Below are positions 1 through 43,158 of a DNA stretch of 64,000 nucleotides, in pieces. Origin of the DNA: Salinirubellus salinus (GTDB lineage Archaea > Halobacteriota > Halobacteria > Halobacteriales > Haloarculaceae); NCBI RefSeq assembly GCF_025231485.1, contig NZ_CP104003.1, positions 1,674,001 through 1,738,000 on the forward strand, read 5' to 3'. A model generated the notes under the pieces. The model ran no database searches, was not told the origin of the DNA, and worked only from the letters and a program-made list of their open reading frames with translations. The stretch's first letter is position 1; every line of letters starts with the position of its first letter. The translations under genes and the position numbers were made by a program.

Positions 1-1586
1 CGGACCTGCGCGAGTACCTCGACGAACACGGCGACGAACTCGCCGTCGACACGCCGGAGCGGACGTTCCTCGAGGAGAACTTCTTCGACTTCTCGTACCT
101 CGACGCGTACCAGGAGGTCGAGCGTCGGTGGGTGAACAAGCCGTTCGCATACGTCTCGGTGCTGTACGACCCCCGCGAGAGAGAGTACCGCTACCACGTC
201 AGCCAGCCGGCGCTCGACGAGTTCGAGCGGTACGTCCGTGCCGACCTCGTCGAGTACCTCCGCAACAGCCTGATGTACCGCGACCTCGGCGGTGGCCGCG
301 AGAAGGGCGAGGTGTTCGAGGAGGACGTGGTCGAACTGGTCCGGGAACACGCCCGGAGCGTCGACGACGGGACGATGCTCAAGTTGCTCTACTACCTGCG
401 TCGTGACTTCATCCAGTTCGGGCCCATCGACGCTATCATGCGTGACCCGGCCATCGAGGACGTCTCCTGTGACGGTGCGAACGTCCCCGTCTTCGTCTAC
501 CACCGGGCGTACCGCGACCTCGAGACGAACGTGGAGTTCAGCGCCGAGCGGCTCTCCTCGTTCACCGTCCGACTGGCCCAGCGGGCCGGCAAGACCATCT
601 CCGTCTCCGACCCGCTGCTGGACGCCACGCTGCCCGACGGGTCGCGGCTGCAGTTGACGCTGGGTGGCGAGATCGCCACCCGCGGGGCGAACTTCACCAT
701 CCGGAAGTTCTCGGACGTGCCGTTCTCGCCCATCGACCTCACGAACTGGGGCACCTTCTCCATCGAGGAGATGGCGTACTTCTGGCTGGCCATCGAGAAC
801 AACAAGTCGCTCATCTTCGCCGGGGGGACGGGGTCGGGCAAGACCTCCTCGTTGAACGCCATCTCCTTCTTCATCCCACCCAGTGCGAAGGTCATCTCCA
901 TCGAGGACACCCGCGAGGTGGACCTCCCGCACAAGAACTGGATCCAGAGCGTGACACGCTCGTCGGCCTCCGAGGGGGGCCGCGGCGAGGTGTCGATGTA
1001 CCGGCTGTTGCAGGCCGCGCTCCGCCAGCGCCCCGAGTACCTGCTGGTGGGAGAGATCCGGACCGAGGAGCGGGTCGCCCTGACGTTCTTCCAGGCGATG
1101 GGCACGGGCCACACGGCCTACACGACGATGCACGCGGACTCCATCGACACGGTCGTCAACCGGCTCCAGAACCCGCCGCTGAACGTCCCGACCGCGATGA
1201 TACAGGACCTCGACGTCATCGCCATCCAGAAACAGACGTTCGTCGGCGAGGACCGCGTCCGCCGGAACCAGCAGGTCACGGAGGTGCTGAGCCCCGAGGA
1301 CGACCCGCTGTCCATCCGGACCCGCGACGTGTTCCGCTGGGACGCCTCGAGCGACACCCACCGACGGGTGGGCGAGTCGGGGGTACTCGGCGAGGTGGCG
1401 GACGAGCGGGGGTGGTCCCGCGAGCGGCTGGCGGCAGAGGTCGAACGCCGTGAGGGGCTGTTGCAGTTCCTCGTCGAGGAGTCGGTCACCGACTACCGCG
1501 ACGTGGCCGCGCTCGTCAAGCTCTACCACAAGGACCCGGAGTACGTGCTAGAGCGGGTCCGCGACCGGGGGTACGACCTCCCGTGA
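1..1586 (+). CDS. pilB: Type IV pilus/secretion ATPase, PilB family (5' end outside window)
   Basis: This is the cytoplasmic hexameric ATPase that powers assembly of type IV pilus-like filaments. The reading frame is open from base 3, and the residues before the first possible start (GTG at 132) match the N-terminal part of the paralogue at 5713, so the true start lies left of the window. Counting from base 132, the Walker A motif GGTGSGKT is at residues 231-238. An EDTRE Asp box, an EYLLVGEIR Walker B region and a HTAYTTMHAD His box follow, all intact. The gene overlaps the downstream PilC gene by 4 bp (GTGA), so the two are translationally coupled. It is close to the second ATPase down to long exact DNA repeats. 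I am sure of the family; the exported subunit is inferred from the pilin gene downstream. Confidence 0.93.
   Translation, partial: DLREYLDEHGDELAVDTPERTFLEENFFDFSYLDAYQEVERRWVNKPFAYVSVLYDPREREYRYHVSQPALDEFERYVRADLVEYLRNSLMYRDLGGGREKGEVFEEDVVELVREHARSVDDGTMLKLLYYLRRDFIQFGPIDAIMRDPAIEDVSCDGANVPVFVYHRAYRDLETNVEFSAERLSSFTVRLAQRAGKTISVSDPLLDATLPDGSRLQLTLGGEIATRGANFTIRKFSDVPFSPIDLTNWGTFSIEEMAYFWLAIENNKSLIFAGGTGSGKTSSLNAISFFIPPSAKVISIEDTREVDLPHKNWIQSVTRSSASEGGRGEVSMYRLLQAALRQRPEYLLVGEIRTEERVALTFFQAMGTGHTAYTTMHADSIDTVVNRLQNPPLNVPTAMIQDLDVIAIQKQTFVGEDRVRRNQQVTEVLSPEDDPLSIRTRDVFRWDASSDTHRRVGESGVLGEVADERGWSRERLAAEVERREGLLQFLVEESVTDYRDVAALVKLYHKDPEYVLERVRDRGYDLP
769..820 (+). repeat. 52-bp exact repeat, copy 1 (pairs with 6629-6680)
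   Basis: These 52 bases are identical to 6629-6680 in the second PilB gene and are flanked by mismatches on both sides. They encode the segment just before Walker A. Identity at wobble positions suggests recent duplication or gene conversion. Confidence 0.9.
1070..1127 (+). repeat. 58-bp exact repeat, copy 1 (pairs with 6930-6987)
   Basis: These 58 bases are identical to 6930-6987, at the same 5860-bp offset as the repeat at 769. They cover the His-box region of the ATPase. Confidence 0.9.
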
Positions 1587-3910
1587 GCGACGGGGGGACG
1601 CCCGAGCGCTCGGGGGACGGCCACGAAGACGGTGACGGGCCCGCCGGGGACGCCACGAACGGTCACCGGGGCGACGGTGTCGACGCCGGGGCCGCCGGAC
1701 CGGGGGACGTCGACGCCAGCGACCTCCCCGCGGACAGCCCGGCGCCGCCGGACCGACCCGACGAGACGGGTCGCGACAACGTCCGCTCGATGGGGACACA
1801 GGGCGAGGCGCAGGCCCGCGAGGAGCTGGCGAGCTTCGACCCGGACGCCGACGGCCCGACCCCGGACCTCGGTCCGGACGCCGACCCGGAGGGCGCCCCG
1901 CCGCCCGAGTACGCCATCGAAGGGCTCTCGGGGATGGGCGCCCCGCCGGTCGAGGAGCAGATCGAGGCCTACCGGCGCCAGTACGGCTTCGTCCGGACGT
2001 TCTTCCGGGTCCGGTCGGACCGCTACCGTGACCTCCAGCGCTCGCTGAACCAGGCACGCATCGGCGAGAGCTACGACACCTACCTCGCGCGAGCGGCCAC
2101 GTACGCGCTCGTGGCGGCCGTCGTCGGGGTCGTCCTCGGCGCGCTCCTGACGCTGGGACTGGCACGGGTGGGCGCGTTCGACGCCATCCGTGCGCCGGCG
2201 GCGCTCCGCGGTGGCGGCTCCGCCTTCGTCTTCGAGAACCGGGTGCTGTTCGGCGGGATCGCCGTCTCCATCCTGACCGCGCTCGTCCTCGGTGGGGCCA
2301 CCTACCTCGTGGCCGTCTACTACCCGAGCGCCGCGGTCAGCACCCGCCGGCAGAGCATCGACGTGACGCTCCCACACGCCATCGTCTACATGTACGCGCT
2401 CAGTTACGGGGGGATGAACCTGAGCGAACTCGTCCGGTCGCTGGCGGACGCCGAGGACACCTACGGGGAGGTGGCCCGCGAGTTCGACACCGTCGTCCGC
2501 GACCTCGAACTGTTCGGCAACGACCTGTTCACCGCGCTCCAGAACCTCCGGAACACCACTCCCAGCGACAACCTGGAGCAGTTCCTCGACGACCTGCTCT
2601 CCGTACTCGACTCCGGCGGGGAGGTGACCGGTTTCCTCGAGGACGAGGCCCGCGGCTACCTGGAGGAGGCCGGCGACGCACAGGAGGACTTCCTCGAGAC
2701 GCTGGCCATCCTCAGCGAGGTGTTCATCGTCGGGTTCGTGGCGACGCCGCTGTTCCTCGTCGTCATCCTCGTCGTCATCAGTCTCGTCGGCGGGCAGACC
2801 ATCGCGCAGTTGACGCTGCTGGTCTACGCCGTCATCCCCATCGGGATGGTGATGTTCCTCGTCCTCGTCGACACGCTCTCGGAACCGTACGTCCAGCGTG
2901 GCCGGGTCGCCGCACCCGACCGGACCGTCCCCGAGGAGGAACACGGCTCGCCGGCCCCGGACGACGAACGGCTGGCAGCCTATCGGAGCCAGCGTCGGCG
3001 CGACGACCTGCGCGGCCTGGTGACCGACCCCGTGACCCTGTTCCGCGACGAACCGCGCTACACGCTGGCGCTGACGGTGCCGCTGGCACTCGGCACCGTC
3101 GCGGGGTTGCTCGCCACCGGTACCGTGGGGCTGCGCCCCGAGGCCTTCGTCGCGGCCCCCATCGCGAACACGACGTGGCTCGTCGTGGTGCCGCTGCTGA
3201 CCGTGATGGTGCCGCTCTCCGTGGGCCACGAGTACCGGGCCGCCCGCGAGCGGCGGCTCACCCGGCGGTTCCCGAACACGCTCTCCATCCTCGCGTCGGC
3301 GAACAAGATGGGCATCGGGCTGACCGAGGGGATCGGTCTCGTCGTCCGCTCCTCCTCGGGTACCATCGCCGAGGAGCTGCGGAAGGTCCGCAACGACATC
3401 CTGTGGAACGCGTCGACGAGCGAGGCGCTGCTGGCGTTCGGCGCGCGACTCCACGTCCCGCAACTGGCACGGACCTCGCGCCTGCTGGCCGAGGGCATCC
3501 GGTCGACCGGCGACCTGTCGCGGGTCCTCTCCATCGCGGCCGAGGACGCACGCAACCGGTACAAGCTCGACCGGGCCCGAACGCGGGAGATGACCTCCTA
3601 CGTCGCCATCGTCGTCATCGGCTACCTCGTCTACCTGCTGGTCGTCCTGCTGCTCGACGCGAACTACCTCGGCCCCATCGCCGAGACAGCCGACCCGCCG
3701 ACGACGGGACTCGGTGGCGCGCAACCGCCGCTCTCGTTCACCAGCGTCCCCGTCGACGTCTACGAGGCCGTGTTCTTCCACTCGGCGCTCATCCAGGGCG
3801 TCGGGAGCGGCCTGCTGGCTGGGAAACTGTCGGACAACACCGTCCTGAGCGGACTGAAGTTCAGTATCGGCCTCGTGACCATCGCCCTCGTCGCCTTCAC
3901 CTTCGTCTGA
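1583..3910 (+). CDS. pilC: Type IV pilus platform membrane protein, PilC/TadC family
   Basis: Polytopic inner-membrane platform protein that pairs with the PilB ATPase to extrude pilin subunits (775 aa). Two type II secretion F-like halves are visible, each a soluble helical bundle with membrane helices: about residues 165-445 and 490-775. The GTG start overlaps the ATPase stop (GTGA). The first roughly 125 residues are an Asp/Gly/Pro-rich, low-complexity extension that the second PilC at 7710 lacks; its role is unknown. The C-terminal half resembles the paralogue closely and shares a 48-bp exact DNA repeat at 2356. A pilin-like gene begins 2 bp after its stop, so the three genes form one operon. 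Confidence 0.92.
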   Translation: MSDGGTPERSGDGHEDGDGPAGDATNGHRGDGVDAGAAGPGDVDASDLPADSPAPPDRPDETGRDNVRSMGTQGEAQAREELASFDPDADGPTPDLGPDADPEGAPPPEYAIEGLSGMGAPPVEEQIEAYRRQYGFVRTFFRVRSDRYRDLQRSLNQARIGESYDTYLARAATYALVAAVVGVVLGALLTLGLARVGAFDAIRAPAALRGGGSAFVFENRVLFGGIAVSILTALVLGGATYLVAVYYPSAAVSTRRQSIDVTLPHAIVYMYALSYGGMNLSELVRSLADAEDTYGEVAREFDTVVRDLELFGNDLFTALQNLRNTTPSDNLEQFLDDLLSVLDSGGEVTGFLEDEARGYLEEAGDAQEDFLETLAILSEVFIVGFVATPLFLVVILVVISLVGGQTIAQLTLLVYAVIPIGMVMFLVLVDTLSEPYVQRGRVAAPDRTVPEEEHGSPAPDDERLAAYRSQRRRDDLRGLVTDPVTLFRDEPRYTLALTVPLALGTVAGLLATGTVGLRPEAFVAAPIANTTWLVVVPLLTVMVPLSVGHEYRAARERRLTRRFPNTLSILASANKMGIGLTEGIGLVVRSSSGTIAEELRKVRNDILWNASTSEALLAFGARLHVPQLARTSRLLAEGIRSTGDLSRVLSIAAEDARNRYKLDRARTREMTSYVAIVVIGYLVYLLVVLLLDANYLGPIAETADPPTTGLGGAQPPLSFTSVPVDVYEAVFFHSALIQGVGSGLLAGKLSDNTVLSGLKFSIGLVTIALVAFTFV
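2356..2403 (+). repeat. 48-bp exact repeat, copy 1 (pairs with 8201-8248)
   Basis: These 48 bases are identical to 8201-8248 in the second PilC gene and are bounded by mismatches. They code for the conserved stretch around TLPHAIVYMYALS. Confidence 0.88.
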
Positions 3911-19535: not shown

Positions 19536-21284
19536 TCAGCGGTCCCTGAACGCCGCGGTCACGTCCACCAGTTCCGTCTCGCCCTCCGGCACCCGGAACG
19601 CACTGACCACGGACCGGTCCGCGTCGGGCGAGTCGACGTGCTTGTCGACGCTGTAGGCGACGAACGTGCAGGCCTCCTCGGTGAACTCCGCGACCGAGTA
19701 GCCCCAGCGGTGCCCGTCGAAGTGCTCGACGTGTGGATTCATCAGTTCGACGAGACCGGAGACGAGCGGTGCGGTGAGTCGGGTGGCGAGCGGACCGGTC
19801 AGGCCCACCGCCTCCGCGGGGTTCACGGACGTGACCGCGGGCGTCATGAACTCCACGCCCAGCCGTTCGGGTTCGGGCGCGTGCCGCCCGAACAGCCAGT
19901 CCCGGTAGCCAGCCTGCTTGTACGCCGCGACGTAACAGTGCATGTCGCCGGTGATGGTGACGAAGTTCTCCAGCCCGAGGGTCTGCACCCGCTCCTCGAT
20001 GGCCCGGCGCTCGCGCGTGTAGCCGTCCCACCCCATCTGGACGGGGTAGAGCGTCGCCCGCCCGGCGCCGAGCTTGAACGGCACCGTCAGCACCTCGTCG
20101 GTCCACACCGTCCACGTCGCGTCGTTCTCGAACTGCTCGAACAACCACGCTCGCTGGTCCGGCCCGAGCATCGACCGGTCCGGCGGTTCGCGGTCCGGGT
20201 CGACCGCCCGCCGGGTCGGGATCGCATCGCGCGGCGGGTCACGGAACAGTCGCTCGTCGGTCAGGACGAGTCGGACCAAGTCGCCGAACTCGAACGACCG
20301 CCACAGCCGGAAGCGGTCCTGCAGGCGGTCGGCGGCCGGGTCGTACTCGACGCGGGCGGGCATGTACTCCCACCACGCGTGCATCCCGTCGGCCACCAGC
20401 CGGGTCATGAACGTCGGGTCGTCGCCACGCGGGTGGTCGCCACGCGGCGCGTCGGTGGCGTCGTTCCAGTGCAGGTCGTTGGCGAACTCGTGGTCGTCCC
20501 ACCCGGCGACGAGCGTGTGCGATTCGAGCGCCTCCTGCAGGAACGCGTCCGAGCGGTAGACGCGGTAGAGGTAGCGGTAGTCCGCCAGTCTCTGCACCCG
20601 GTCGGCACCGCTCGGGAGGTCCTTCACCCGGTCGTGGTAGGTCCGACTCCCGACGCCTTTGAAGTGACCGCTGTCGGACTCGTAGATGGCGTCGCCGACG
20701 TGGACGATGAAGTCCACGTCCGCCTCGGCGATGTGGTGGAACGCCCCGTAGTAGCCGTTGAGGTAGTTCTGACAGGCGACGACGGCGAACCGGACCGACT
20801 CGGGGTCGGTCGGGAGCGTCCGGCAGGTCCCCACGGGCGACGCCGAGCCGTCGTGGACGAACCGGTAGCGATACGCCTCGCCGGGGGCGAGGTGGCCGTC
20901 GAGGTCCACCTTCAGCGTGTGGTCGTGGGCCTCGACCCGCTCCGGGTCGGTGACCGACCCGCGGTAGACCACGTCGTCGAACCCGTCGTCGTGGGCGACC
21001 TCGACGCCGACCGGGCAGTCCGGGTCGTACTGCTCGGGGTCGATTCGCGTCCAGAGGATGACCCCCGCCGTCGTGGGACCGCCGGAGGCCACCGACTGCG
21101 GGAACGTCTCGCGGTCGGCCACCTCGTCCACCCGGAAGTCCTCGGTCGACGCCTCGGGGGTGAGCGCGAACGCGATGTCGTGACTGTCGAGTTCCGAGAG
21201 CAACCCCACGTGGTCGTCCGAGGGCGTGAGCGCGGCCGGTTCGTCGTCCCCGTCGTGGGCCGACGCCGGCGCCAACTGGTCCAT
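19536..21284 (-). CDS. phoD: PhoD-family alkaline phosphatase/phosphodiesterase
   Basis: A 582-aa metallophosphoesterase of the PhoD family, which releases phosphate from mono- or diesters. Visible signatures are FPQSVASGGPTTAGVILWTRI (PhoD N-domain), VACQNYLNGYYGAF, the metal-binding HVGDAIYE, WDDHEFANDLHWND, and VTITGDMHCY near residue 440. The C-terminal region is beta-rich. Unlike many PhoD enzymes it shows no Tat or Sec signal at the start chosen (MDQLAPASA), and no upstream in-frame ATG fits, so it may be cytoplasmic, or exported without an obvious signal. The start is only moderately sure. Confidence 0.88.
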   Translation of the reverse strand: MDQLAPASAHDGDDEPAALTPSDDHVGLLSELDSHDIAFALTPEASTEDFRVDEVADRETFPQSVASGGPTTAGVILWTRIDPEQYDPDCPVGVEVAHDDGFDDVVYRGSVTDPERVEAHDHTLKVDLDGHLAPGEAYRYRFVHDGSASPVGTCRTLPTDPESVRFAVVACQNYLNGYYGAFHHIAEADVDFIVHVGDAIYESDSGHFKGVGSRTYHDRVKDLPSGADRVQRLADYRYLYRVYRSDAFLQEALESHTLVAGWDDHEFANDLHWNDATDAPRGDHPRGDDPTFMTRLVADGMHAWWEYMPARVEYDPAADRLQDRFRLWRSFEFGDLVRLVLTDERLFRDPPRDAIPTRRAVDPDREPPDRSMLGPDQRAWLFEQFENDATWTVWTDEVLTVPFKLGAGRATLYPVQMGWDGYTRERRAIEERVQTLGLENFVTITGDMHCYVAAYKQAGYRDWLFGRHAPEPERLGVEFMTPAVTSVNPAEAVGLTGPLATRLTAPLVSGLVELMNPHVEHFDGHRWGYSVAEFTEEACTFVAYSVDKHVDSPDADRSVVSAFRVPEGETELVDVTAAFRDR

Positions 21285-21340: not shown

Positions 21341-23368
21341 TCAGTCGTCGAGCCCGATGGCCGAGGGGGTCGGTTCGCCCGCCTCGACCGCCCGCTGGGT
21401 CGCGGTCCGCAACCCGACCTCGAGGGTCGTCCCCTCGCCTTCGGGGTCGACCACCTCGAGTTCACCGCCGATGCCCGTGACGATCCAGTTGGCGAGCCAG
21501 AGGCCCAGTCCCGTCCCGTGTTCGAGCGGCGTCTCCGAGCGGCCGTCGAGGACCGCCCGCTCGTTGGAGGCCAGCCCCGGTCCCTCGTCCGAGACCCGGA
21601 CGGTGACCCCGTCGTCGTCCGTCGCGACCACGACGCGCACCGTCGAGGCCGCCCCGGCGTGCTGGGCGGCGTTCTCGACGACCTCGAACAGGGCACGCTC
21701 CAGCCGGTCGGTGCCGAGCACCGGCGGAACCGACTCCGCGGCGGTGCGAACCGCGATGTCGGCCTCGGGGTACTGCTCGCGGACCCGGTCGACCACGGAC
21801 TCGGCCACCGTCACCGGGTCACGCTCGGCGGGGTCGCCGGGGTCGTCGGCGACCTGCTCGAGCGTCCGGGCCTTCTCGCTGAGCGCGACGAGTTCCTCTG
21901 CCGTCTCGGCGATGGTCTCCCCGGACTCGGCGACGGGGCCGTCGTACTCCGACGCGAGCAACGCCGCGTGCCCCCGGACCACGGTCATGTCGTTGCGCAG
22001 GTTGTGCCGAAGGACCCGGTTCAGGACCGAGACGAGCGTCTCCCGCCGCTTGCGCTCGGTCACGTCCCGCTGGAAGCCGACGAAGTGAGTCACGTCGCCG
22101 TCCGCGTCGTGGACCGGCGTGACCGTCACCTCGTTCCAGAACGGCGTCCCGTCGGCCCGGTAGTTCAGCACCTCCTGCTGGACCGGCTCGCCAGCCTCGA
22201 TGGCCTCGCCGAGCGCCGCGGTGGTCCCCCCGTTCGTCCGCTCGCCCTGCAAGAGCCGGCAGTCACGGCCGATGACCGCCTCCCGGTCGTACCCCGTCAG
22301 CCGAGTGAACTCCGGGTTGGCGTACACGAGCGGGTCCTCGGCTTCGCCCGCCTCGGCGATGGTGATGCCGACCTGTGCCTCCTCGATGGCCCGGTCCTTC
22401 AGCCGGAGTTCACGCTGGCGCTCGCGGCGCTCGGTCACGTCGCGGAACACCGCCTGCACGTACTGCCCGTCGTCGAGCGTGACGTGACTCGCGCTCACCT
22501 CGACGGGGATGGCTGAGCCGTCGCGGTGTCGGACCCGCAGGGGCGAGCCGTCCGGGTGGCTGTCGACGGGTCCGTCGGCCGCCACCAGCCGGTCCACGAG
22601 TCGGTCGCCCACGTCGTCGTCGTCCGGCGCCACGCCGACGACCAGTTCCCGCCACGCGGTGCTCACCAGGTCCCGCTCGGCGTAGCCGGTCAGGTCCGCC
22701 GCGGCCGCGTTCGCCTCCGCCAGTTCCTCGGTGTCGGTGTCGACCAGCACGATGGCGTCGGGCGCCGTCTCGACCAGCGACTCGTACTTCCGCTCCGACC
22801 GTTCGAGTCGGCGCTCTCGCGTGTCGATGGCCTCGCGGTGCTCGTCGAGTCGGTCCTCGTAGCGCGCCGAGGCGAGTTCCCGCTCGACGGAGCGAGCCAC
22901 CAGTTCCGCGAACGACCGCTCGGCCTCGGTGAACGACCGGGAACGGGCGTCCCGGTCGACGAAACAGAGCGTCCCGAACGTCTCCTCCCCGAGAGTGAGT
23001 TCCACCCCGAGGTAACACCCGACGCCGTGTTCGGCGTAGCGGTCCTCCCACCCCGGCTCGGCCGGGACGTCCGACATCGCCAGCGGCGATTCCCGCTCCA
23101 GCGTCACCCGACAGTAACTCGTCGCGAGGGCCGACACCTCCCCCTCGGTGACGACGCCGTCCGCGTCCCCGGTGCTCAGGTACACCTCCCGCCGGTCACG
23201 GTCGCGGTCGATGCGGGCGACGTGGCCGTTCTCGACGCCGAGGTACTCGCGGCCGACCTCGAGCGCGGCGACCACACGCTCCGAGAGCGTGACCGACTCC
23301 TCGGCCAGTACCTGGTACAGTCGGCGTCGATACTGTGATGCGTCGCTGGTGTCGGTGTCGACGGTCAT
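21341..23368 (-). CDS. GAF-PAS-LOV sensor histidine kinase
   Basis: A soluble signal-transducing kinase (675 aa). Domains in order: GAF at about 20-170, PAS at 190-315, a second PAS at 330-440 with LOV hallmarks, a HisKA-like segment with H-box LRHNLRND at 453-460, and HATPase_c at about 545-660 (ENAAQHA, DEGPGLA, GTGLGLWL). The second PAS has GRDCRLLQG (Cys370), NYRADGTPFWN (Asn402 and Asn412) and GFQRDVT (Gln433): the cysteine, asparagines and glutamine that bind FMN and react to blue light in LOV photoreceptors. No membrane segment and no receiver are present. ATG 23368 (MTVDTDTSD) was chosen because longer in-frame starts would run through the tRNA-His gene. A TTTATT-type box lies about 50 bp upstream. 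Confidence 0.92.
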   Translation of the reverse strand: MTVDTDTSDASQYRRRLYQVLAEESVTLSERVVAALEVGREYLGVENGHVARIDRDRDRREVYLSTGDADGVVTEGEVSALATSYCRVTLERESPLAMSDVPAEPGWEDRYAEHGVGCYLGVELTLGEETFGTLCFVDRDARSRSFTEAERSFAELVARSVERELASARYEDRLDEHREAIDTRERRLERSERKYESLVETAPDAIVLVDTDTEELAEANAAAADLTGYAERDLVSTAWRELVVGVAPDDDDVGDRLVDRLVAADGPVDSHPDGSPLRVRHRDGSAIPVEVSASHVTLDDGQYVQAVFRDVTERRERQRELRLKDRAIEEAQVGITIAEAGEAEDPLVYANPEFTRLTGYDREAVIGRDCRLLQGERTNGGTTAALGEAIEAGEPVQQEVLNYRADGTPFWNEVTVTPVHDADGDVTHFVGFQRDVTERKRRETLVSVLNRVLRHNLRNDMTVVRGHAALLASEYDGPVAESGETIAETAEELVALSEKARTLEQVADDPGDPAERDPVTVAESVVDRVREQYPEADIAVRTAAESVPPVLGTDRLERALFEVVENAAQHAGAASTVRVVVATDDDGVTVRVSDEGPGLASNERAVLDGRSETPLEHGTGLGLWLANWIVTGIGGELEVVDPEGEGTTLEVGLRTATQRAVEAGEPTPSAIGLDD

Positions 23369-23451: not shown

Positions 23452-23618
23452 TGGCCGACCGGGGGGGGACGACGGTCGTCGCCGAGGGGTCCGCGAACCG
23501 GCGGACCGGGAAACGTGGTGGACGTCGGAGGGCTGTTCCAGTCGCGCTGCGGTCGTGCGAGACGAAGGTGACGTGGCCGGGGAACTCCCCAGCCGAGCCG
23601 TGTGAGAAAGTTGGTGTA

Positions 23619-23692
23619 GTCCAGGTGCGAGAATCGAACCCGCGTCTCAGCCTCCACAAGGCTGAAGGATAGTCCACTACCCCAACCCGGAC
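23619..23692 (-). tRNA. tRNA-His (anticodon GTG) with encoded G-1 and C73
   Basis: On the minus strand the acceptor stem TCCGGGT pairs with ACCTGGA, the T stem GCGGG/CTCGC encloses TTCGATT, and the anticodon stem CAGCC/GGCTG encloses TTGTGGA, giving anticodon GTG. The base before the acceptor stem is G and the discriminator base is C, the G-1:C73 pair that identifies tRNA-His. No intron and no encoded CCA. Confidence 0.95.
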
Positions 23693-23811
23693 ATGCAACC
23701 TCACCTAGTCCGATGCGACGGATATAGATTTCGCTCCGGTGCCGGTTCGTCACGGCCTCGCACGTCGCATCCGGGGGGCTTTTGTCCGCGAGCGGCCAAC
23801 GCCGCGTAACA

Positions 23812-24264
23812 GTGGCCATCACGGACAAGATCTACGTGAAGAACCACCGGCAGTTGGCCTCGCAGCTGGAGACCAACTTCCCCAAGAGTGCCTTCTCCGG
23901 CGCCACGCTGGACCTCCTCTTTCGCGGCGAGAACCTCGCCAAACTCGACGACGCCACGCAGGAGCGGGTGCTCGACTTCGCCACGGACTTCATGGACTGT
24001 GACTGCCAGTCCAACCCCCACTGCGGACACCCGCAGGAGAAGTTCATCCGCTACCTGCTGGAGTTGCGCGAACAGGGCCTCGGCCCGGACGCCATCGTCG
24101 ACGTGATGGGACAGGACTACATGCTGTACGCGTACCCTGGCGACGTGCTGGGCTTCCTCGACGACGCGGTCCGGACGCTCGAGGCGGTGGAGGAACTCGC
24201 GGAGGTGGACGGGCGGCAGGAGGCGGCCGACGAGGCGCGGGAGAAGAAACGGCGGCTGACCTGA
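23812..24264 (+). CDS. Conserved haloarchaeal protein with Cys-rich motif (DUF5814-like)
   Basis: A 150-aa protein of no known function. It starts AITDKIYVKNHRQLASQLET, followed by alpha-helical sequence and a Cys-rich stretch, DCDCQSNPHCGHPQEKF (Cys at about 63, 65, 71 and His 73), which could bind a metal. The C-terminal 30 residues are charged and helical. From memory the N-terminus resembles haloarchaeal DUF5814 proteins, which I could not check. GTG 23812 is supported by a CTTTTGT box about 28 bp upstream (leaderless) and by the conserved-looking AITDKIYVKN start. Confidence 0.7.
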   Translation: MAITDKIYVKNHRQLASQLETNFPKSAFSGATLDLLFRGENLAKLDDATQERVLDFATDFMDCDCQSNPHCGHPQEKFIRYLLELREQGLGPDAIVDVMGQDYMLYAYPGDVLGFLDDAVRTLEAVEELAEVDGRQEAADEAREKKRRLT

Positions 24265-24279
24265 CCCGGGTCGAGCCGG

Positions 24280-24696
24280 TCAGCCCAGACGGAACGGCTG
24301 GTCCTCGGCGTCCTCGTCGTCGAGGTCGTCGAGCATGATTATCTCCTCGTCCTCCTGTTCGTCGAGGCGCTGGCTGAGCCGGGTGACGTAGCGCTTGTAC
24401 TCGTCGAGTTGCTCGCGGAGGTGTTCGGCCTCGAGTTCGAGTCGCTCGTGTTCGCGGACGAACGACTTGGGCACCTCCACCTTCGGCGGGAACGATTCGG
24501 CGGGTGACGAGGCGCTCGCCTCGTTCAGCTCGTGCTTGGGGACGACCTGGACCTGGCCATCGTGGGCAACGAGCATATCCACGTAGTCGCGGAACACCGC
24601 CGAGAGCGAGATGTCCCGCTCCTCGGCTATCTCCCGCAGGGTCTCGAAGGCGTCCTCGTTGACCCGGAAGGAGATGGTCTTGTTCTTGTTGCCCAT
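24280..24696 (-). CDS. Ribbon-helix-helix protein with acidic coiled-coil tail (CdrL-like)
   Basis: A 138-aa putative transcription regulator. Residues 5-45 form a ribbon-helix-helix domain: the strand KTISFRVNED, then helices FETLREIAEERDISLSAVFRDYVDMLVA. Residues about 77-115 are a charged coiled coil (REHERLELEAEHLREQLDEY), and the tail is very acidic. This layout resembles the haloarchaeal cell-division regulator CdrL, but I recognise it only by pattern. It is divergent from the hut operon across 139 bp, and its TATA-like TTAACC box is about 30 bp upstream, predicting a leaderless transcript. Control of hut is possible because of the location, not because of sequence. Confidence 0.75.
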   Translation of the reverse strand: MGNKNKTISFRVNEDAFETLREIAEERDISLSAVFRDYVDMLVAHDGQVQVVPKHELNEASASSPAESFPPKVEVPKSFVREHERLELEAEHLREQLDEYKRYVTRLSQRLDEQEDEEIIMLDDLDDEDAEDQPFRLG

Positions 24697-24803
24697 ATCA
24701 CGTCTGTTTTCCAGTTACTGCTACTTAACCGTTCGTCAGACGCTCGCACGCCAGCAGCCGACCCGTCTCCCCGCGCCGCGCGGCTGCCCGCCGCCTGCAC
24801 AAG

Positions 24804-24811
24804 CAATATTT
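24804..24811 (+). promoter_or_regulatory. TATA box of the hut operon
   Basis: CAATATTT is centred about 28 bp before hutU ATG 24836, predicting a leaderless hut mRNA. Confidence 0.6.
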
Positions 24812-24817
24812 GCCGTG

Positions 24818-24833
24818 ACGTTCCAAGGGACGT
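24818..24833. promoter_or_regulatory. Inverted repeat overlapping the hut transcription start
   Basis: ACGTTCC-AA-GGGACGT: six of seven arm positions pair. It lies between the TATA box and the hutU start, where a bound repressor would block transcription. No factor can be assigned. Confidence 0.4.
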
Positions 24834-24835
24834 AG

Positions 24836-26593
24836 ATGAGCCACCCCGACGCGGAGCCACGACCCGAGAACCGAATCGGCGAACCGAGCGAGGAGTGGCG
24901 GCGATACCAGGGGTCGCCGACCGGAACGGACCTCGAGTGTCGAGGCTGGCGACAGGAGGCCGCGCTCCGACTCCTGAACAACAACCTCGACCCCGAGGTG
25001 GCCGAGAAACCCGAGGAGCTCGTGGTCTACGGCGGCACCGGCCGCGCGGCCCGGTCGTGGGACGCCTACGACGCCATCCTCCGCGAGTTGCGCGAACTCG
25101 GCGACGAGGAGACCCTGCTCGTCCAGTCGGGCAAGCCCGTCGGGCGGTTCCGGACCCACGAGCGTGCCCCTCGCGTCCTCATCGCCAACTCCAACCTCGT
25201 CGGGAAGTGGGACGACTGGGAGCACTTCCACGAACTCGAGGCCGAGGGCCTGTTGATGTACGGCCAGATGACTGCCGGGTCGTGGGCCTACATCGGAACG
25301 CAGGGCATCCTCCAGGGGACCTACGAGACGCTCGCCGAGGCGGGTCGTCAGCACTTCCCGGACCGCGAGGGGTTGGCAGGCACCGTCACCGTCACCGCCG
25401 GCCTCGGTGGGATGGGCGGTGCCCAGCCGCTCGCGGTGACGATGAACGGCGGGGTCTGCATCGCCGCGGAGGTCGACGAGCGCCGTATCGACCGGCGCAT
25501 CGAGACGGGCTACTGTATGGACCGGGCACCGGACCTCGAGACGGCCATCGAGCGCGCGGAGGCGGCGGCCGAGGCGGGCGACCCCTACAGCGTCGCGGTC
25601 CACCAGAACGCCGCGGACTTCCTCGAGGCGATGCTGGACCGGGGGTTCGTCCCGGACCTCCTGACCGACCAGACGAGCGCCCACGACGAACTCGAGGGGT
25701 ACTACCCCTCGGGCTACACGGTCGCCGAGGCCGACGACCTCCGCGAGTCGGACCCCGAGGCCTACGTCGAGGCCAGTCTCGACACGATGGCCCGACACGT
25801 CCGCGCGATGCTCGCCCTGCAGGACCGGGGCGCCGTCACGTTCGAGTACGGCAACAACATCCGCGGACAGGTCGAGGAGTACCGCGGCGTGGAGGAGGCC
25901 TTCGACTTCCCCGGCTTCGTCCCGGCGTACGTCCGCCCGCTGTTCTGTCGCGGGAAGGGGCCGTTCCGCTGGCTCGCGCTCTCGGGCGAGCCGGCCGACA
26001 TCCACCGGACGGACGAGGCCATCCGCGAGCTGTTCCCCGAGGACGAGGCCCTGCTGCGCTGGATCGACCTCGCCGCGGAGCAGGTCCAGTTCCAGGGCCT
26101 CCCGAGTCGCGTCTGCTGGCTCGGCTACCGGACCGACGAGGAGGGCCTGACCGAGCGGGCACGGTTCGCCCTGCGCATCAACGACCTCGTCCGCGAGGGG
26201 GAGATATCCGCACCCATCGTCGTCACGCGCGACCACCTCGACGCCGGGAGCGTCGCGTCACCGAACCGCGAGACAGAGGCGATGCGCGACGGGAGCGACG
26301 CCGTCGCGGACTGGCCCATCCTGAACGCTCTGCTGAACTGCGCGGCGGGTGCGGACATCGTGAGCGTCCACGACGGCGGCGGGGTCGGCATCGGGAACTC
26401 GCTCCACGCGAACAACCACGTCGTCCTCGACGGCACCGACCTCGCCGCCGAGAAGGCACGTGCCGTGTTCACCACGGACCCCGGCATGGGCGTGATCCGT
26501 CACGCGGACGCGGGCTACGAGGACGCCATCGACGAGGCCGAGCGCTCGGGCGTCCACATCCCGATGCGCCGAGAGGAGGGAGACGACGCATGA
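24836..26593 (+). CDS. hutU: Urocanate hydratase
   Basis: NAD-dependent hydration of urocanate to 4-imidazolone-5-propionate, the second step of histidine breakdown (585 aa, close to the usual 550-560). Recognised from [67 protein letters not shown] and the urocanase signature [10 protein letters not shown] near residue 420. It is the first gene of a four-gene operon; its stop overlaps the hutG start by 4 bp (ATGA). TATA box and inverted repeat just upstream set the start. Confidence 0.96.
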
Positions 26594-40900: not shown

Positions 40901-41680
40901 TCAGCGAGCGGTCCACCCGCCGTCGACGGCGAGTGTCGTCCCCGTGACGTAGGCGGCCGCGTCGCTGGCGAGGAAGACGACCGGGGCGGCCACCTCCTCC
41001 GGCTCGGCGAACCGGTCCAGCGGCGTCCGTTCCTCGATGGACGCGCGCAGTTCCTCGTTCTCGGTGAGGTCCTCGGTCAGGTCGGTGGCGACGTAGCCCG
41101 GCGCCACGCAGTTCACCCGCACGTCCGGTGCCCAGTCGATGGCCATCGACTTCGTCAGCCCCACGAGCCCGTGTTTCGAGGCGACGTAGGGGTGCTGGCG
41201 CGGCAGGCCGACCAGCCCGCCGACGCTGGCGACGTTCACGACACACCCACCCGTCTCCTCGAGGTTCGGGGCCGCCGCCCGCGCACACGCGAACGCCCCA
41301 CCGAGGTTCACGTCGGTCACGAGGTCCCACGCGTCCTGGTCGACACGGTCGGGCGTCCCGAGCGCGTTCGCGGGGTTGATACCCGCGTTGTTCACGAGGA
41401 CGTCGACGGGACCGAGTTCGGCCTCGACGGCCTCGAACAGCGCGTCCACGTCGTCGGCGTCGGCCACGTCGCAGGTGAGGAGGGCGCTCTCGCCGCCCCG
41501 CTCCTCGACGCCCGCGACGACGGGTTCGAGGTCGGACTCCGTGCGCGCCGTGGGTACCACGTCGGCACCGGCGTCCGCGAGGCCCAGTGCGATGGCCCGT
41601 CCGATACCGCGTCCACCGCCCGTCACCACGGCCGTCCGGCCGGTCAGGTCGAACCGCTCGTCCACTGCGTGTTCGGTCAT
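40901..41680 (-). CDS. Short-chain dehydrogenase/reductase (FabG-like)
   Basis: An NAD(P)-dependent oxidoreductase of 259 aa. The Rossmann motif TGGGRGIG is at about 20-27, NNAG in VLVNNAGINPAN at about 97, and the catalytic Ser-Tyr-Lys is S in VASVGGLVG and YVASKHGL. PGYVATDLTEDLTENEEL and ASDAAAYVTGTTLAVDGGW close the fold. Possible substrates are 3-oxoacyl-CoA or sugars. ATG 41680 was preferred over an in-frame start 24 bp upstream. It is divergent from the photolyase gene with 71 bp between starts. Confidence 0.9.
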   Translation of the reverse strand: MTEHAVDERFDLTGRTAVVTGGGRGIGRAIALGLADAGADVVPTARTESDLEPVVAGVEERGGESALLTCDVADADDVDALFEAVEAELGPVDVLVNNAGINPANALGTPDRVDQDAWDLVTDVNLGGAFACARAAAPNLEETGGCVVNVASVGGLVGLPRQHPYVASKHGLVGLTKSMAIDWAPDVRVNCVAPGYVATDLTEDLTENEELRASIEERTPLDRFAEPEEVAAPVVFLASDAAAYVTGTTLAVDGGWTAR

Positions 41681-41751
41681 GGCGGCTCGACTGCCGGCAC
41701 GCACATAAGGCTACCCGGAGCTTCATGCGGTCCCCGCGCCTCCGTCGAGAT

Positions 41752-43158
41752 ATGCGCCTGCACTGGCACCGGCAGGACCTGCGGGGCACCGACAACACGG
41801 CGCTCGCGTGGGCCGCCGACCACGGGGACGTGCTCCCCGTCTTCGTCTTCGACGACGCCGTCCTCGAACACGGGTCGTCACCCCGCGTCCGCTTCATGCT
41901 CGACGCGCTCGCCGATCTCCGTGCGTTCTACCGCGAGCGTGGCGGGGACCTGCTGGTCCGCCACGGCGACCCCGCCGTGGTGCTGCCCGCCCTCTGCGAG
42001 GAACTCGACGCCGAGGGGGCGCTCTGGAACCGCGACTACTCCGGACTGGCACAGGCACGCGACGCCCGGGTCAAGGAGGCCCTCGCCGACCGCGACCTCG
42101 AACGTCAGTCGTTCCACGACGATATCCACCACGAACCGGGGTCCATCACGACGAACCAGGGCGAGCCGTACTCCGTCTACACCTACTTCTGGAAGAAGTG
42201 GCGCGACCGGGCCAAGGCCGACCCCTATCCCGCACCCGAGTCGGTCGTCGACCCGGCCGACCACGCTGTCGAGGCGGGCGAGATGCCCACCATCGAGGAA
42301 CTGGGCTTCGAGGAACCGGACTGCAACGTGGAGCCGGCGGGCTACGAGGCCGCCCGCGAGCGGCTGGACGCCTTCTGCGAGTCGGCCGTCTTCGAGTACG
42401 ACGACCGGCGGGACTATCCGGCGGACCGCGCCACCTCGAAGCTCTCGGCGCACCTCCGCTGGGGGACCATCGGTGTCCGCGAGGTGTACGCCGCCACCGA
42501 GGACGCGACGATGGCGGCCGAGACGGAGACCGAACGCGAGAACGTGGAGGCGTTCCAGTCACAGCTCGCGTGGCGCGAGTTCTACACCCACGTCCTCTAC
42601 TTCAACCCCGAGGTCGTCTCGCAGAACTACAAGGAGTACGAGCACGGCATCCGCTGGCGCGAGGACGGCGAGGAACTCGCGGCGTGGAAGGCCGGCGAGA
42701 CGGGCTACCCCATCGTGGACGCCGGGATGCGCCAGTTGCTCGCGGAGGGGTACATGCACAACCGGGTCCGGATGATCGTCGCCTCGTTCCTCACCAAGGA
42801 CCTCCTGCAGGACTGGCGCGAGGGGTACGACCACTTCCGCGAGCACCTCGTCGACCACGACACCGCCAACGACAACGGCGGCTGGCAGTGGGCGGCCTCC
42901 ACCGGTACCGACGCCCAGCCCTACTTCCGCATCTTCAACCCGATGACGCAGGGCGAGCGGTACGACCCCGACGCCGAGTACATCAGGGAGTACGTGCCGG
43001 AACTCGCGGACGCCGACCCCGACCAGATACACGGCTGGCACGAGCTCTCGCTCCCCGAGCGCAAGGCCGCCGCCCCCGACTACCCGAACCCCATCGTCGA
43101 CCACTCGGAACGCCGAGAACAGGCGCTGGCGATGTTCGAGGAAGCGCGGGGGGAGTGA
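41752..43158 (+). CDS. phr: Deoxyribodipyrimidine (CPD) photolyase
   Basis: Light-driven repair of cyclobutane pyrimidine dimers, with FAD as cofactor (468 aa). MRLHWHRQDLRGTDNTALAW is the antenna-binding N-domain start. The FAD-binding domain has TGYPIVDAGMRQLLAEGYMHNRVRMIVASFL, GGWQWAASTGTDAQPYFRIFNPM and ERYDPDAEYIREYVPEL. The class I photolyase pattern fits. ATG 41752 was chosen over ATG 41725 because a TATA-like ACATAAGG (41702-41709) predicts transcription from about 41732. UV repair suits a sunlit brine. Confidence 0.94.
   Translation: MRLHWHRQDLRGTDNTALAWAADHGDVLPVFVFDDAVLEHGSSPRVRFMLDALADLRAFYRERGGDLLVRHGDPAVVLPALCEELDAEGALWNRDYSGLAQARDARVKEALADRDLERQSFHDDIHHEPGSITTNQGEPYSVYTYFWKKWRDRAKADPYPAPESVVDPADHAVEAGEMPTIEELGFEEPDCNVEPAGYEAARERLDAFCESAVFEYDDRRDYPADRATSKLSAHLRWGTIGVREVYAATEDATMAAETETERENVEAFQSQLAWREFYTHVLYFNPEVVSQNYKEYEHGIRWREDGEELAAWKAGETGYPIVDAGMRQLLAEGYMHNRVRMIVASFLTKDLLQDWREGYDHFREHLVDHDTANDNGGWQWAASTGTDAQPYFRIFNPMTQGERYDPDAEYIREYVPELADADPDQIHGWHELSLPERKAAAPDYPNPIVDHSERREQALAMFEEARGE

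Follow-up and report, generated by a model that had tools for sequence, protein, structure and literature searches.

The window analysed here, a stretch of 64,000 nucleotides from Salinirubellus salinus (genome of 4.38 Mb in two contigs), carries a gene that a first-pass annotation had read as a possible blue-light (LOV) histidine kinase. A complete open reading frame is present at the coordinates given there, on the minus strand: according to the ORF list and translation, it starts with an ATG at 23368, its stop codon ends at 21341, and it encodes 675 amino acids. A GTG at 23704 would open a longer frame, which crosses the tRNA-His gene at 23618-23692; this start was therefore ruled out and the ATG preferred. 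The domain list of the protein holds no membrane part, in line with a soluble protein. Its acidic composition, with 4 lysines against 68 arginines in the 675-residue translation, is as expected for a haloarchaeal cytoplasmic protein.

A gene for a PhoD-like phosphatase (19536-21284, minus strand) begins 57 bp downstream of the kinase stop codon on the same strand. A functional operon of these two genes was not accepted, since the phosphatase is absent from the homologous loci. Upstream of the kinase gene lie tRNA-His and then the genes for a DUF5814 protein, a CopG-like protein and urocanase. This row (23618-26593 of the window) places a histidine tRNA beside histidine breakdown, an adjacency that is probably coincidence. 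Among 19 homologous loci of 16.5 kb, no recurrent neighbour gene was found, either shared with the window or generally between the loci; an HTH_10-type gene was seen by eye near the kinase homologue at three of them. A search for a target response regulator, which the first-pass annotation had asked for, gave 32 REC matches in the genome and none inside the window. The LOV kinase gene stands alone functionally.

Pfam and TIGR00229 matches revealed a GAF domain, a PAS domain (from about residue 190), a LOV-like PAS domain, a weakly matching HisKA domain and a HATPase_c domain, in this order (Table 1). The LOV-like domain is thus the second PAS domain, as previously proposed, and Pfam PAS_9 matches it at residues 345-438. 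His455 and the N and G boxes of the kinase part are intact and conserved in an alignment of 21 rows. This architecture, LOV plus GAF/PAS sensors followed by a C-terminal histidine kinase, is that of haloarchaeal LOV histidine kinases, and the C-terminal BAT and HTH_10 domains by which Bat regulators are recognised were absent from the protein in the Pfam search. Two NCBIfam models, which match the protein essentially in its LOV part, scored below their curated cut-offs: BluLightHisKinLov (NF052306) with 130.6 bits against 450, and YtvA_fam (NF052652) with 132.8 bits against 250. Within the GAF domain, Cys86 and Cys135 are invariant across the 21 aligned proteins and may have a redox or ligand role.

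Table 1. Features of the LOV histidine kinase gene and its product (window positions).
Feature	Position	Strand	Evidence
LOV histidine kinase gene	21341..23368	(-)	ORF and translation; Pfam GAF-PAS-LOV-HisKA-HATPase_c; full-length haloarchaeal homologues of ≤50% identity
GAF domain, residues 34-164	22877..23269	(-)	Pfam PF01590, E=2.8e-9
First PAS domain, residues 190-321, not LOV-like	22406..22801	(-)	TIGR00229 best stretch 190-321; PAS_8 194-253
LOV domain, residues 322-437	22058..22405	(-)	phmmer against PDB; AlphaFold2 pLDDT 95.2; Foldseek matches are LOV crystal structures
LOV signature GRDCRLLQG, residues 367-375 (canonical GxNCRFLQG)	22244..22270	(-)	
Cys370 codon, predicted flavin-adduct cysteine	22259..22261	(-)	Cys in 27/29 full-length homologues
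Asn402 codon, predicted flavin ring contact (YtvA Asn94)	22163..22165	(-)	Invariant in homologues
Asn412 codon, predicted flavin ring contact (YtvA Asn104)	22133..22135	(-)	Invariant in homologues
Gln433 codon, predicted signal-relay glutamine (YtvA Gln123)	22070..22072	(-)	Invariant in homologues
Continuous helix, residues 437-474, from LOV DVT motif to kinase dimerisation domain	21947..22060	(-)	AlphaFold2 full-length model; pLDDT 56-60 at 441-460
His455, predicted phosphoacceptor (NRVLRHNLRND)	22004..22006	(-)	Weak Pfam HisKA 450-505; nearly invariant in alignment
HATPase_c catalytic domain, residues 554-654	21407..21709	(-)	Pfam PF02518, E=8e-17; N-box ENAAQH and GxGL motif present

When the protein was compared with the PDB by phmmer, the best matches were LOV proteins (E = 1e-32 to 1e-20), a resemblance that at the sequence level is far beyond chance. 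They include PpSB2-LOV and 4r3a (Blue-light-activated histidine kinase 2), alignable through LOV and kinase. An AlphaFold2 model of the LOV part, built with 41 relatives, was compared with known structures by Foldseek. All top PDB matches were LOV domains, among them Meiothermus LOV (MrLOV; TM 0.92, rmsd 0.7-1.0 Å), and further LOV matches were Brucella LOV-HK, YF1, PpSB2-LOV, Chlamydomonas phototropin LOV1 and Chloroflexus LOV.

The translation places Cys370, Asn402, Asn412 and Gln433 exactly where the first-pass annotation had numbered them. Cys370 aligns with the cysteines of PpSB2-LOV and 4r3a and with Cys62 of YtvA, and the published LOV pattern [NS]-x2-[FPGHSA]-x4-[GEQR]-x(9,11)-C matches the kinase only once, at residues 351-370, ending in Cys370. 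Eight of ten diagnostic residues agree with YtvA; the mismatches are Asn61, replaced by Asp369, and Phe64, replaced by Leu372. The exact nonamer GxNCRFLQG is thus not found in GRDCRLLQG, and the earlier statement that only one position departs from it was wrong, since both Asp369 and Leu372 differ. A third departure lies at the position 17 residues after the cysteine, which, by counting, is the equivalent of AsLOV2 Arg467. Of the two arginines that contact the FMN phosphate in plant LOV domains, the kinase thus has the first (AsLOV2 Arg451) as Arg371, and Gly387 stands in place of the second; 4r3a carries Ala at the Arg467 site.

Each of these departures has natural precedents. In the PDB alignment, an Asp before the cysteine is also seen in PpSB2-LOV (QDCRFLQG), in which C53 is photoactive and which drives a kinase in the SB2F1 fusion (PMC13322254). 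ALovD-1 carries Tyr at the Phe position of the signature, yet photocycles (PMC12202551). These two cases show that LOV function does not strictly depend on the exact nonamer. Cys-bearing haloarchaeal homologues likewise have Asp at the Asn site (e.g. L023 and L030) or Gly at the Arg467 site (L021, L022, L026 and L038). Judged from these sequences, none of the three departures would exclude LOV function.

The full-length AlphaFold2 model has a pTM of 0.37, and we used its local helix continuity alone. In this model a single helix (residues 437-474) carries His455, and helices 148-201 and 312-330 connect GAF, PAS and LOV. Scored by script, the predicted phosphoacceptor His follows the Thr of the DVT/DIT motif at a distance of 18 residues in 36 of 37 Cys-bearing sequences; in the 37th, L058, the motif reads NVT and the spacing, judged by eye, is also 18. 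The same DVT-to-His spacing was present in five more kinases lacking the LOV signature. In bacterial LOV kinases, the signal reaches the dimerisation helices by way of the DIT/DVT junction (PMC13322254). The modelled helical link between LOV and kinase matches this signalling-helix picture. The linker length differs from that of YF1, and the direction of the light effect therefore cannot be predicted.

Full-length homologues occur in several haloarchaeal families; their identity to the kinase is 34-48% among the 21 aligned rows and reaches 50% in the genome search, from which 29 were taken as loci (L018-L046). The nearest are L018 (49-50%) and L019 (47%), which are also the nearest rows in the tree, without strong support. 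The equivalents of Asn402, Asn412 and Gln433 are retained in all 29, the adduct cysteine in 27; Trp replaces it in L032 and Leu in L040. In the tree, these two lie apart from each other within a clade of 22 rows whose other members are Cys-bearing, which suggests that the cysteine may have been lost separately in each. Since two of the 29 homologues have lost it, the family appears to tolerate non-adduct versions. Natural cysteine-less LOV kinases of the same family are L032 and L040, and also L140 and L146, with Cys changed to Trp or Leu and the Asn/Asn/Gln set kept. Within this family, the copy in the window is not special.

Other genes related to light were found in the same genome. It encodes two rhodopsins and has three matches to photolyase/cryptochrome, of which one is a gene of the window (DNA photolyase/cryptochrome-type gene, 41587-43158, plus strand; FAD_binding_7, E = 6e-83). 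A Bat-type regulator with LOV (GRNCRFLQG), GAF, BAT and HTH_10 domains, in which the adduct cysteine is kept, is encoded outside the window, about 5 kb beyond its left end (L127:7956-10283, plus strand; G000:C1 ~1666.5-1668.8 kb). It adjoins phytoene-synthase-like and bacterioruberin-type carotenoid genes, functions that were assigned by eye. A short stand-alone LOV-like protein (L003:~1318-1842, plus strand; G000:C1 ~2679.1-2679.6 kb) reads DRNPRLLQG, with Pro for Cys and FRN for FWN, in a frame that carries no effector domain. With rhodopsins, photolyase/cryptochrome, Bat-type LOV and LOV-like protein in its genome, the host organism is well equipped for light.

Taken together, the sequence, the predicted fold, the conserved cysteine and flavin contacts, and the helical LOV-kinase coupling support the initial reading as a blue-light LOV histidine kinase. 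The protein is very probably a functional soluble blue-light LOV receptor kinase, as judged from sequence and models. These establish the order of domains, the LOV fold, photoactive residues that are present and conserved, a conserved helical coupling and intact kinase motifs, whereas flavin binding, adduct formation, the direction of any light effect, a partner regulator and the roles of GAF and PAS are inferred. We propose that FMN in the LOV domain would absorb blue light and, once lit, bond reversibly to Cys370. Protonation of the flavin would flip Gln433, and this change would travel by way of the DVT motif and the continuous helix as far as His455, where it would tip the kinase/phosphatase balance. 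One or more response regulators whose genes lie elsewhere would then receive the phosphate. Upstream on the same helical spine, the GAF domain and the first PAS domain may tune the response, and it is plausible that they add further inputs.

Two other readings of the LOV domain have to be weighed against a light receptor. It could mainly be a flavin-based redox or oxygen sensor that can do without the cysteine, a role proposed for BAT-LOV* of haloarchaea, which lacks this residue. Flavin binding and a response to reduction are documented for cysteine-less haloarchaeal LOV-like domains (PMC4682037), the Cys-less L032 and L040 fall inside the very family studied here, and Asp369 together with Gly387 could loosen flavin binding. 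A pure redox sensor, however, has no need of the cysteine, and Cys370 is kept with all adduct-pathway residues both in the window protein and in 27 of the 29 homologues; we therefore consider this function improbable. Even less credible, to the point of being very hard to sustain, is an ordinary PAS domain that has lost flavin binding, its LOV-like motif being a relic and the kinase sensing something else. The two departures in the motif and the loss of one phosphate-binding arginine would fit such decay, but the conserved pocket of a relic would be expected to drift, and here Asn402, Asn412, Gln433, Arg371 and Gln374 are intact; moreover, the Asp and Gly at the departing sites recur in the Cys-bearing homologues named above.

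A more elaborate version of the blue-light kinase, which we regard as rather unlikely, would be a multi-input protein whose GAF domain (Cys86/Cys135, perhaps redox-active) gates the LOV domain, with the lost arginine giving a fast-recovering LOV and the family having switched repeatedly between Cys-based light sensing and Cys-less redox sensing. An analogy for a shorter adduct life after loss of an arginine is PpSB1-LOV R66I, which affects a different arginine and has a value of 23 min against 2471 min (PMC6047819).

Archaeal LOV proteins are well documented at the sequence level: a 2014 survey listed 167 from more than 80 species, and about 30% of those from halobacteria were HTH proteins, the rest being two-component kinases with RR, GAF and PAS domains (PMC4844311). 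A report of 2025 on ALovD-1, from a Halonotius PAS histidine kinase, was the first to demonstrate flavin binding and a photocycle for an archaeal LOV domain, at salt concentrations of up to 3 M (PMC12202551). Like these proteins, the window kinase is haloarchaeal, acidic and arginine-rich, and has an adduct cysteine and GAF/PAS domains before a histidine kinase. It differs from ALovD-1, for which photochemistry was measured and which has GxNCRYLQ and three PAS domains, in having GRDCRLLQ and a GAF-PAS-LOV order. With Brucella LOV-HK, the Erythrobacter blue-light kinase 2 (4r3a) and the engineered YF1 and SB2F1, it shares the fold and the arrangement in which LOV regulates a kinase through a helical linker. 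Unlike these bacterial LOV kinases, it carries GAF and PAS N-terminal to LOV, its LOV domain lies 18 residues from the phosphoacceptor His, and its HisKA belongs to the NRVLRHNLRND type of haloarchaea. Bat (bacterio-opsin activator; REC/PAS/LOV-GAF-BAT-HTH_10) is likewise haloarchaeal and pairs GAF with a LOV or LOV-like domain, but it acts as a DNA-binding regulator and has no kinase part, and the published BAT-LOV* has Pro for Cys.

The window protein thus fits the known archaeal LOV kinases and differs in detail (GRDCRLLQG, Gly387, GAF-PAS-LOV order), not in principle. Such kinases had been recognised as common in haloarchaea before; the finding is sound rather than surprising. In the literature searched, we found no paper that connects light absorption by an archaeal LOV kinase with a response of the cell, and published work there on Cys-bearing haloarchaeal LOV consists of the photochemistry of one domain only. 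Because the family is widespread, keeps the spacing from LOV to His fixed and includes natural cysteine-loss variants, it would serve well for testing how LOV domains control kinases and how light sensing compares with redox sensing in archaea.
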